Shown piece by piece: positions 61,120 to 64,000 of a stretch of 64,000 nt of DNA. The stretch covers positions 6,134,520 to 6,198,519 of the forward strand of contig NC_054389.1 in assembly GCF_001625195.1 (NCBI RefSeq), read 5' to 3'. This DNA is from Drechmeria coniospora. Lineage: Eukaryota; Ascomycota; Sordariomycetes; Hypocreales; Ophiocordycipitaceae. Position numbers and translations under genes: made by a program. Numbering within the stretch: position 1 is the first letter of the stretch; each line of letters opens with the position of its first letter. A model generated the notes under the pieces. The model ran no database searches and was not told the origin of the DNA. It saw only the letters and a list, made by a program, of their open reading frames with translations.

Positions 61120-61418
61120 TGTTATGGTATCGGGCTAAGCCCGACTGGATGACGTAAGATGAGGGGTAAAACAGACTCACCCAAAGGGCACACACAGAAA
61201 GGAAGCCCTACGGAGAAGCAGTCCTTTCCCCCTTCGTCTTTTAATAAACTTCGTTGTGATTTCTAGAGCAGCTGCCTAGTGACTCCGTAACACTAGTAGT
61301 GCCCGTCCTGCTGTTACTAACAGCTTCGATTGATTTCTGGATTGGTTGTATAGTCCGTATTACTACACTTCCACTACGCCTCTTCTTTATCTTTGTACTA
61401 TTGTGTACGAAGATTTCT
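61120..61418 (+). mobile_element. LTR-like sequence of a probable copia-type retrotransposon
   Basis: About 299 bp beginning TGTTATGG, with a hairpin TATCGGGCTAAGCCCGA and AATAAA/TTTAATAA boxes. It is followed at once by GAGGTTATGAGCCC. That sequence complements the anticodon stem-loop of initiator tRNA-Met (GGGCTCATAACC), the half-tRNA primer known for copia elements. Boundaries are inferred: the left end from TG and the right end by comparison with the second copy, which ends ...TTTCA. No gag-pol is present, so this is a solo or truncated remnant. Confidence 0.6.
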
Positions 61419-61433
61419 AGAGGTTATGAGCCC
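61419..61433 (+). other. Primer-binding-site-like sequence, copy 1
   Basis: GAGGTTATGAGCCC directly 3' of the LTR-like sequence. The same sequence occurs in reverse orientation at 61767-61781. Confidence 0.55.
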
Positions 61434-61597
61434 AGCAGGAATAACCCAGTTTCTAGACCTTCTTTGGTGGAATCCATTTTGGGAATACAAATACAATTTA
61501 GTTAGTAACTAGAATATTTTTCGATTTTCCTTTATACTACGGAGTAGTAGTACTAGTAGTTCGGTCTTCCACTAGTAGTACTAGCAGGGATTAAGCA

Positions 61598-61741
61598 GAA
61601 ATGCTTTAGGAGATACAATAGTAAGTAGTACTTGTTGTAGGTGTTAGCAGCTGGGTGCGATAGCTGAAATGCTTTAGGATATACAATAATAAGCAGTACT
61701 TGTTGTAAGTGTTAGCAGCTGGGTGCGATAGTTGAAATGAT
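61598..61741. repeat. 68-bp tandem repeat, about 2.1 copies
   Basis: Units beginning GAAATGCTTTAGGA at 61598 and 61666, with the start of a third at 61734. They lie between the two inward-facing primer-binding-site sequences, so they are probably the leader of a retroelement. Confidence 0.85.
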
Positions 61742-61766
61742 TTCCTGGAATTAGTGTAGTCCTTCC

Positions 61767-61796
61767 GGGCTCATAACCTCTTGAAATCTTCGTACA
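61767..61796 (-). mobile_element. Second LTR end plus primer-binding site, inverted
   Basis: The reverse complement matches 61404-61433 at 29 of 30 positions. Read on the minus strand, it follows the Hog1-like gene directly and provides LTR end (...GATTTCA) then PBS-like GAGGTTATGAGCCC. Confidence 0.65.
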
Positions 61797-62017
61797 TGAA
61801 TCACAATTGTGATACATACCACAAGCCCTTCCTCTCCTTCGCCAGAAGCTTCCCAACGCCATTGATAAAGTGTGTCTGCATCAACGGCATCAACCGTGTG
61901 CGCGCCTGCCTGGTTTCCGCACCAGGCGCTCGTCGCTCGTCACCCCGTACCGACCGGTATCCAACACACCTCTACCGTCGACCGCTGCCCGTAAAGCGGC
62001 TGCCCGGCTATGGGCCG

Positions 62018-63101
62018 CTACTGGTTTATTGGCTCGACGCTGTGGTAACTGAGGATCTCCGAGTACATCATAATCTTCCAAGTACAGGCGGGTCGGCGTC
62101 GTTGAAACTCCAGTCAAACCTTTCATCGGCCACCAACTCGTCGGTGGGGTCATGGTACGGAGCGAGGTAGTCGTGGGAGAGGGCGCGTACGGCCGTTATC
62201 CGCGTCGAGGGGTCGAAGGCGAGCATCTGCTCGAGGAGGTCGATGGCTGACTCGTCGGCGTTTTTAAACATGCTGCCGAGGGACTGTCGCTCGCGCTTCC
62301 GTTCTTAAACATGCTGCCGAGGGACTGTCGCTCGCGCTTCGGCAGAGACTTGACGAAGTGCATCTTGCTATCGCTCGCGATGGCACCGATTACATCATCC
62401 GGGGGCTTGCCGAGCAGCTTGGTAATAATAGCAAACTGCCTTTTGTCGTCCTTTTCCGGGTATAGGGATTTTCCCTCGAGCATTTCGGCCAAGACGCAGC
62501 CCGCGCTCCAGATATCGACCTCAACGTCGTACTTTTGCCACGTGAGCATGACTTCGGGGGTCCGGTAATACCGGGTCGAGACGTAGCCCGTCATCTGGGG
62601 ATCCTGGACGCGGGCAAGACCGAAGTCGCAGATCTTGAGATCGCAGTTCTCGTTGACGAGGATGTTGTTCGACTTAAGGTCGCGGTGGACGATGCCGGCC
62701 GAGTGCAGGTACTTGAGGCCGCGCATGATCTGGTAGAGAAAGTACTGGATGAACTGCTTCTCGAGCGGTCGCGAGGTGATTAATCGGTACAGGTTGGCGC
62801 TGAGGAGCTCTGTGACGAAGTAGATGTCCTCGAGGGGGGAGATGAAGATGTTGCGGAGCGAGATGACATTTTCGTGCCTCATGTGCTTGAGGATTTTGAG
62901 TTCTCGGTATGTGCGCCTGGCGAGGATAGGGTCGCTGAAGGGCTCTATGATCTTCTTGATGGCCACGTTCTGGCTCGTGAGCTGGTCACGGGCGGAGCAG
63001 ACGACGCCAAAGGCCCCCCTGCCAACGGGCTGGAGATCCGAGTACCTGGACGTGATCTCAAACGTCGTGCCGAAGATCTGGGCACTGACGAACTCGGCCA
63101 T
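62018..63101 (-). pseudogene. Intronless, frameshifted Hog1-type MAP kinase copy (retropseudogene)
   Basis: From ATG at 63099-63101 one uninterrupted frame runs to about 62290 and reads as a stress-activated (Hog1/MpkC) MAP kinase: [16 protein letters not shown], glycine loop [47 protein letters not shown] with the TGY activation motif, then [17 protein letters not shown] 36-bp direct duplication (62264-62299 and 62305-62340, period 41) then throws the frame, giving a stop at 62196. The expected continuation ([16 protein letters not shown]...FDWSFNDAD) follows in another frame. A second small deletion near 62080 shifts it again before [10 protein letters not shown], ending at 62018. Hog1 genes of filamentous ascomycetes normally carry several introns and none is present here, so reverse transcription is the likely origin. 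Catalytic residues are intact, so decay looks recent; a truncated product could still be expressed. Confidence 0.85.
62264..62340 (-). repeat. 36-bp direct duplication (41-nt period) inside the Hog1-like copy
   Basis: Identical 36-bp blocks at 62264-62299 and 62305-62340, with a 5-nt spacer CGTTC. Since 41 is not a multiple of three, the duplication is itself the frameshift. Confidence 0.92.
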
Positions 63102-63259
63102 GATGAAGGTATGACGAGGGTAGGATAGGGTCGCGATTAGGAAAGTCGGAGACGTCGCGTCGTCGACACCTGCTACTACTAGCTGCTGGGTGCAGGGAGG
63201 GAAGGCCAGCAATGAGGGAGCAGGAGGCGGGCGCGGTGGAAGTTGCGGATGCGATGAAA

Positions 63260-63313
63260 TATACAACCAATCCAGAAATCAATCGAAGCTGTTAGTATCA
63301 GCAGGACGGGCAC
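63260..63313 (-). mobile_element. LTR fragment directly upstream of the Hog1-like copy, inverted
   Basis: The 54-bp reverse complement matches 61299-61352 of the LTR-like sequence at 53 of 54 positions. It ends 158 nt before the Hog1-like ATG and is oriented so that LTR transcription would run into the kinase. Confidence 0.75.
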
Positions 63314-64000
63314 CGGTTAGTAACTGGGCAGAGAACACAGAATTGAAGAAGTCAAATTGTAATATCAGAATGCAATTCACAAAGGAGTGTGTGTTCTTCT
63401 TCCTCCCTTCCTTCCTTCCTGCTGCGATATTCTATCTAAGAGACGTACAGGAAAAGTAGGACCATTTTATACCTGTGAGGTAGTACCTCGATCAGTATAA
63501 TGTGCACGTGTTGTGATTCTGGCTGCTTCCAGACAATGCATCTCCAAACGATCCGCTTGTACGCAATGCAGTTCCAAATACTCTGGTTGAGGCATACTAC
63601 TAGTTGCATAGTTTGTGTATGCAACTGGTAGACTTGGTTGGTATTAGCCTTCGGTCGCTATAGTGCAGTAGTCGATTAGGCTAGTAGTTATAGGACGCGC
63701 CATAGGCGTAGGCCTTGTAAGCGAATGTGAGGTGCAGTACCCGCACTAAGTGCGGATACTGGCGGATCTTTTGACAGTTTGGTCATTTGGCCTAACGGTT
63801 AACTGGTCTATTGTCCATATGGGCACATCTCCCTATATTACTTATGTGTTACAGTATCCTTCCTACTAGGACACAGTAGCTAGGTCTACTCGGACTAACC
63901 CTAATCCGAGGCCTTATGCAACTAATCGTATGATTAGTGTGACAGTACGGAGTGCTTACTGGTAGTAGACCAAAATAATAGACTGGGTCCAGGTATCTTT
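63314..64000. other. AT-richer repeat-like flank with candidate LTR promoter
   Basis: A TATAAAA box on the minus strand at 63465-63471 points toward the LTR fragment and the kinase copy. A hairpin with arms ACTAGTTGCATA/TATGCAACTGGT lies near 63598-63630. No protein is recognisable. The sequence looks like degraded U3 or other retroelement material, but no second full LTR copy is in the window to prove it. Confidence 0.4.

Follow-up and report, generated by a model that had tools for sequence, protein, structure and literature searches.

We analysed a 64,000-nucleotide stretch of DNA (the window; C1:6134520-6198519) from a fungal genome of 32.8 Mb in 28 contigs, and all comparisons of the locus were made within this one genome. 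On the minus strand of the window, the end of a copia LTR holds a copy of a spliced Hog1 mRNA beside the site at which reverse transcription of the element starts. It is a readable, broken fossil of a capture event, and its parts are as follows (window coordinates, with L064 a further copy of the same element).

63260..63671, minus strand: copia LTR, part of U3 and the presumed start of R/U5, aligned to positions 427-840 of the L064 LTR
63260..63313, minus strand: 54-nt LTR block, 98% identical to 61299-61352 on the opposite strand
63257..63259, minus strand: TTT at the 5' junction, where the parent and the LTR both read GTC
61790..63256, minus strand: copy of the spliced Hog1 mRNA with 5'UTR, whole CDS and 3'UTR (the aligned 3'UTR count given below includes the shared overlap)
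62196..63101, minus strand: remaining open frame of the Hog1 copy, 301 codons and then a stop, with a Pfam Pkinase match
62259..62340, minus strand: 41-bp tandem duplication that breaks the Hog1 frame
61790..61797, minus strand: 3' junction microhomology, GTGTACGA in the parent and in the plus-strand LTR copy, ATGTACGA in the chimera
61779..61789, minus strand: LTR end resuming after Hog1, AGATTTCAAGA
61767..61778, minus strand: primer-binding site (PBS) GGTTATGAGCCC, directly after the LTR end
61456..61766, minus strand: 5' leader, colinear with other copies of the element, holding a 68-bp tandem repeat (61594-61729)
61299..61446, plus strand: uninterrupted LTR end, PBS and short leader of the same subfamily as the chimera and inverted to it
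61120..61292, plus strand: solo LTR of about 173 bp (TGTTA...TAACA), separate from the copia LTR

An earlier, sequence-only reading of this DNA had described a kinase frame set between two blocks of LTR, and this arrangement holds. Positions 63313-63260 are the reverse complement of 61352-61299 (98%), and in a second block the 40 nt at 61796-61757 are the reverse complement of 61443-61404 (90%). These blocks lie 51 bp apart in the plus-strand LTR copy (61353-61403), and the Hog1 sequence lies between them on the minus strand, where it replaces about 51 nt of LTR relative to the plus-strand copy. An LTR end with a PBS-like sequence, previously placed as one block at 61796-61767, is indeed present, but its boundaries had to be redrawn, with the LTR ending at 61779 and the PBS occupying 61778-61767. 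The stretch that had served as the reference LTR, 61120-61418, proved to be a composite of a foreign LTR of about 173 bp (61120-61292) and a copia piece that begins at 61299. Most of its listed matches stop at query position 171-183, and 61120-61292 is a separate, repeated LTR of about 173 bp. By its sequence the plus-strand copia piece spans 61299-61421, and its PBS begins at 61422. The solo LTR belongs to another, abundant repeat family, with at least 44 matches among the 40 of 289 candidates that were scored, for a query that also contained copia sequence.

The Hog1 copy and its parent gene

A genome search with the minus-strand sequence of the locus (63320-61760) returned the locus itself and one further Hog1 gene, C3:9030150-9032166, which matches exon by exon (E = 1.2e-294 for the best Hog1 match). 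The other matches to the kinase region are to other kinases, at 70-78% identity over 76-289 bp. The protein of the parental gene is nearest to sordariomycete Hog1 (93% for Colletotrichum tofieldiae and 92% for Madurella fahalii). Eight introns of 49-111 bp divide the parent gene; spliced alignment recovered six, all GT-AG, and inspection of the sequence by hand added one GC-AG and one further GT-AG intron. All eight are exactly absent from the copy, in which we find no intron scars, and the copy includes UTR sequence (155 aligned nt of 5'UTR and 232 of 3'UTR). The absence of all eight introns demonstrates an RNA intermediate. A segmental DNA duplication of Hog1 is ruled out, given that the eight introns are gone while the UTRs are retained. 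The copy carries no poly(A) on its 3' side, where the 3'UTR is joined straight to the LTR end.

Copy and parent differ at 103 of 1430 aligned sites (13 of 155 in the 5'UTR, 74 of 1043 in the CDS and 16 of 232 in the 3'UTR). The Hog1 frame had been read as running intronless from 63101 to 62018. It is intronless, and there are UTRs at both ends, but a stop at 62196-62198 closes it after 301 codons because of the 41-bp tandem duplication; a 4-bp deletion near 62086 follows. One explanation of the locus is that it carries a functional kinase retrogene driven by the LTR. In line with this, there is a TATAAA in the LTR at 63471, the sequence from 63465 to the Hog1 ATG at 63101 is free of other ATG codons, and the 301 open codons retain their Pkinase match; a hybrid transcript starting from the LTR TATA box is possible. 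However, the C-terminal part has been lost through the frameshift, and the substitutions argue the other way. In the first 267 codons we observed 37 amino-acid changes against a neutral mean of 37.9 (95% range 31-44), obtained by scattering as many substitutions, of the observed spectrum, at random along these codons, and the same neutral simulation gives P = 0.14 for zero stops. Pairwise dN/dS, which includes changes on the parent branch, is 0.59 over 347 codons and 0.63 over the first 267. Among the 46 amino-acid differences, 41 fall at conserved residues, departing from the residue common to the parent and at least four of five chosen fungal Hog1 proteins, and there is no difference (0 of 46) at which three or more of the five agree with the copy; these were five of six such proteins, P0050 being omitted with part of its kinase domain missing. 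The changes therefore occurred mostly on the branch of the copy. We consider a functional retrogene very unlikely. Judged by its truncated frame and by its substitutions, which look neutral, the Hog1 copy is a retropseudogene.

Two further accounts of the sequence changes found no support. Purifying selection on the copy is at odds with the neutral-like changes and the broken frame. RIP as the main source of the changes is unsupported by the 71 transitions and 32 transversions; the C>T changes in the copy are spread over contexts (CpG 10, CpA 8, CpC 5, CpT 3).

The copia family and its other LTR ends

Both pieces that flank the Hog1 copy belong to one LTR family, and not to unrelated repeats. 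They represent a single LTR element in the same sense, with LTR sequence on one side (63671-63260) and LTR end, PBS and leader on the other (61789-61456). The first piece aligns to the L064 LTR, as given above, and the second, over 61787-61456, to that element's LTR end, PBS and leader; the outer U3 of the chimera's LTR is missing or too diverged. A stretch at 63688-63838, 92% identical to stretches in L059 and L002, adjoins this truncated outer end. L064 has two LTRs (933 bp) that are 98.4% identical. The LTRs of L061, L063 and L064 start with TGTTAAAA and end with AAGA, and their flanks show the 5-bp target duplications GGTAC, TATAC and TTAAC. The open frame of L064 matches RVT_2 (Pfam), and that of L063 matches gag_pre-integrs and Pol_BBD above the cut-off and rve below it. 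Because of RVT_2, gag_pre-integrs and the 5-bp target duplications in three copies, the family is classified as copia, on domains read in L063 and L064, which are copies other than the chimera locus. These domains agree with an integrase placed ahead of an RVT_2-type reverse transcriptase.

At the chimera and in other copies, GGTTATGAGCCC directly follows the LTR end. We take this sequence to be complementary to the anticodon arm of initiator tRNA-Met, a PBS of the copia half-tRNA type. The later internal region and the 3' LTR were not found, at the sensitivity used, in the window plus 8 kb downstream. The element at the chimera is truncated, and therefore no target-site duplication can be defined around it. 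Two other features of the family were seen in passing: some copies (L044, L047) have extra units of the 68-bp tandem repeat of the leader, and L061 carries, at 962-1461, a second copy of about 250 bp of the LTR end beside the LTR.

We then compared the interrupted LTR end with other copies of the family. Of 54 loci tested against the plus-strand copy, 17 aligned above the score limit and the PBS was readable in 14 (L042, L044-L047, L049, L050, L052-L054, L056, L057, L059 and L060). In all 14, the LTR is continuous between the 54-nt block and the PBS, any gaps there being about 14 nt at most. L018 and L024 align beyond the LTR end without an insert and have no readable PBS, and the alignment of L021 stops at 61394. 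This test of LTR continuity left out L001, L009, L016, L028, L029 and L041, the last being the locus itself.

At up to 3 mismatches, the genome contains 120 matches to the PBS pattern, 100 of which were listed. When 60 sites fetched by place were compared with one single LTR, 9 of the 60 passed, because the LTR subfamilies diverge, and an all-against-all test was used instead. In this test, the 295 nt upstream of the PBS were compared at 76 other sites (the 60 fetched by place and 16 from earlier loci), with the chimera and its plus-strand twin compared too. The best partner reaches an identity of at least 0.77 at 75 of the 76 sites, 0.70 for the twin (whose LTR end was set here at 61413, 8 bp short of 61421, with the conclusions unaffected) and 0.58 for the chimera. 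The one exception among the 76, L123 (0.71), contains a solo LTR rather than a host gene. No host insert was found upstream of the PBS at the 76 other sites compared, of 120 genome-wide. From these comparisons, the interruption of an LTR end by host sequence is unique among the sites examined (76 of 120, and the loci above). L123 (C3:8300750-8301070) is a case in which a member of the solo-LTR family of about 173 bp is inserted in a copia LTR; it is bordered by CTGGC on the left and CTAGC on the right, a possible 5-bp duplication with one mismatch.

The junctions and the origin of the insert

On the 3' side of the insert, read on the minus strand, the parent has GATTCGTGTACGAGATTCCC, the LTR ATTGTGTACGAAGATTTC and the chimera GATTCATGTACGAAGATTTC. 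No match between the 350 genomic nt after the parental Hog1 stop and the LTR end at 61299-61443 (145 nt) is longer than GTGTACGA, the one 8-mer that they share; 0.028% of the 32,550 junction pairs share 8 nt or more. It is again the sole 8-mer between 1,595 nt of Hog1 (the spliced message plus 150 nt) and the 30-nt LTR-end piece, which was taken in this second test to end at 61413, a choice that does not affect the conclusion. The chimera retains 7 of these 8 nt. The 3' edge of the insert lies 11-19 nt from the PBS, eleven further nt (61789-61779) standing before it. On the 5' side, the LTR has TGTATAGTCCG, the parent CTCGTCCATCGC and the chimera TGTATATTTCATCGC. GTCC is common to the LTR and the parent here and the chimera reads TTTC, so that no microhomology survives in the chimera at the 5' junction; this is either the decayed remnant of a 4-nt match or an untemplated addition of TTT.

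The sense orientation of the copy, the microhomology 11-19 nt from the PBS, the skip of about 51 nt and the lack of poly(A) point to a switch to Hog1 mRNA during minus-strand synthesis, and back. We propose that a copia-type LTR retrotransposon made this Hog1 retropseudogene when its reverse transcription switched to the Hog1 mRNA and returned, and we put the probability of this at roughly three in four. The sequence-only reading had likewise suggested that an mRNA was captured through two jumps, off the LTR and back to it. The missing introns, the element's sense and the absence of poly(A) bear it out, as do the 8-nt match of parent and LTR close to the PBS and the continuity of the LTR in the other copies read.

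The proposed course of events would be as follows. In the virus-like particle, a tRNA on the PBS would prime the minus strand, and 11-19 nt of U5 would be copied. The growing end, the complement of GTGTACGA, would then pair with these 8 nt where they recur in the 3'UTR of a Hog1 mRNA packaged in the particle, and the message would be copied to about its 5' end. Synthesis would resume on the element RNA some 50 nt upstream of the point of departure, possibly with three untemplated nucleotides, and the chimeric cDNA would be integrated or recombined into the genome. The Hog1 copy would afterwards have decayed without detectable selection, and the locus would have been truncated and rearranged.

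Some observations count against this proposal. In the standard copia cycle, one strong-stop DNA is the source of U5 in the two LTRs, so that the Hog1 insert would be expected in each of them, which weighs against an account by the standard cycle. A second Hog1-bearing LTR is not seen, as the genome search shows only one Hog1 copy besides the parent, and the nearest LTR end of the same subfamily (61299-61446) has no Hog1 insert. The undefinable target-site duplication, the lack of surviving 5' microhomology and the retention of 7 rather than 8 nt at the 3' junction are further points against it. One form of the proposal deals with part of this: a template-switched LTR-Hog1-LTR cDNA may have entered by homologous recombination with a resident LTR, not through integrase. 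Such an entry explains why one LTR has the insert while another lacks it, and why the rest of the element is missing, but it needs an extra step for which there is no direct evidence. We regard it as a tentative possibility, and since it is a sub-case of the switching account its probability is already contained in the one given above.

The main rival places the event at the DNA level, with a Hog1 cDNA from a retrotransposon reverse transcriptase patching a double-strand break in a resident copia LTR, where microhomology end joining would remove about 51 bp of LTR. This accounts for an insert in one LTR alone, for the 51-bp loss, for the microhomology and for the extra TTT, and the capture of Ty1 cDNA at breaks is described for yeast in the accessible text of PMC7175516. 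On the other side, a patch does not predict a sense-oriented insert whose 3' edge is 11-19 nt from the PBS; by our own post hoc estimate the chance of such an edge is about 1% if breaks are uniform over the 933-bp LTR. We consider the patching of a break unlikely. Still less can be said for an ordinary LINE-type processed pseudogene that landed by chance in the LTR. The copy is intronless, as such a pseudogene would be, and LINE-made chimeras are known in Magnaporthe (PMC2104539, accessible text), but its edges show neither poly(A) nor a target duplication, about 51 bp of the target are missing and parent and LTR share 8 nt at the junction. We hold this origin to be extremely improbable.

The twin of the chimera raises a separate question about how the whole locus arose. 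With up to 3 mismatches allowed, the subfamily's 30-nt LTR-end/PBS pattern has just two matches in the 32.8 Mb, at 61404 (+) and 61796 (-), and a reversed control of the pattern gave 0 matches in the same 32.8 Mb. The pieces at 61299-61446 (+) and 61456-61796 (-) stand head to head, with Hog1 in the minus-strand piece only, and the similarity of the plus-strand twin stops about 25 nt after the LTR end. It is conceivable, if rather doubtful, that a single aberrant copia reverse-transcription reaction made the entire locus, with both switches during strong-stop synthesis of the minus strand, the first of them no more than 19 nt from the primer, and the twin at 61299-61446 produced by yet another switch. 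If true, the locus would preserve, as a natural fossil, a jump of strong-stop synthesis onto a host mRNA in a filamentous ascomycete.

Relation to known systems

The type of mechanism proposed for the Hog1 copy is already known from plants, from animals and, through Ty1, from yeast; the copia case in a filamentous fungus is new within a limited search. That literature search, with most subscription papers outside it, found no copia capture of a host mRNA in filamentous fungi. To our knowledge, few natural captures allow both switch points to be placed at single-base resolution. Here, one genome contains the intron-bearing parent, the element family and the primer site, and it is this combination of parent, family and PBS that lets us infer the step at which the template was left, after 11-19 nt and at an 8-nt match. 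The locus also suggests that the message of a signalling kinase can be packaged and copied, though this copy is now broken.

Within filamentous ascomycetes, the accessible text of PMC2104539 describes tripartite chimeric retropseudogenes made by a LINE in Magnaporthe with double switches. The Hog1 locus resembles these in its double template switching, its filamentous ascomycete host and the chimeric retrocopy left behind. The Magnaporthe chimeras, as presented there, are LINE-driven and have 14-bp target duplications, whereas the present element is a copia that is putatively tRNA-primed, with no target duplication seen. Retrocopies of ribosomal-protein genes are mentioned for fission yeast in the part of PMC8232201 that is accessible. 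Fungal Helitrons capture genes as well (PMC4905642 and PMC10799480, accessible parts), and there too a mobile element carries host gene sequence. In those accounts, however, capture by Helitrons acts at the DNA level with rolling-circle movement, and at the present locus a spliced mRNA copy lies in an LTR.

LTR-mediated retroposition is reportedly the subject of Tan et al. 2016. For plants and animals, accessible sections of PMC5408686 and PMC8232201 describe template switching at microsimilarities between an LTR element and a packaged mRNA, yielding LTR-flanked retrocopies, and plant LTR elements with captured genes are surveyed in PMC3726574 (accessible part). The Hog1 locus shares with LTR-mediated retroposition in animals and plants, including maize Bs1, a copy of a spliced host mRNA, flanks from an LTR element and microsimilarity at the switch point. 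It differs in that the insert lies inside the LTR, at most 19 nt from the PBS, whereas theirs lie in the internal region, and in its fungal host, its truncated element and its lack of a second LTR.

In yeast, Ty1 makes retrosequences and its cDNA is caught at breaks, according to the accessible text of PMC7175516. The Ty1 retrosequences and Y'-Ty1 cDNA of Saccharomyces cerevisiae are like the present case in that a fungal element of the copia superfamily copies a cellular RNA and the cDNA enters the genome. The yeast Ty1 cases are mostly induced or experimental. In contrast to these, the copy at the Hog1 locus arose naturally, in a filamentous ascomycete, from a host gene with several introns, and it has since decayed.
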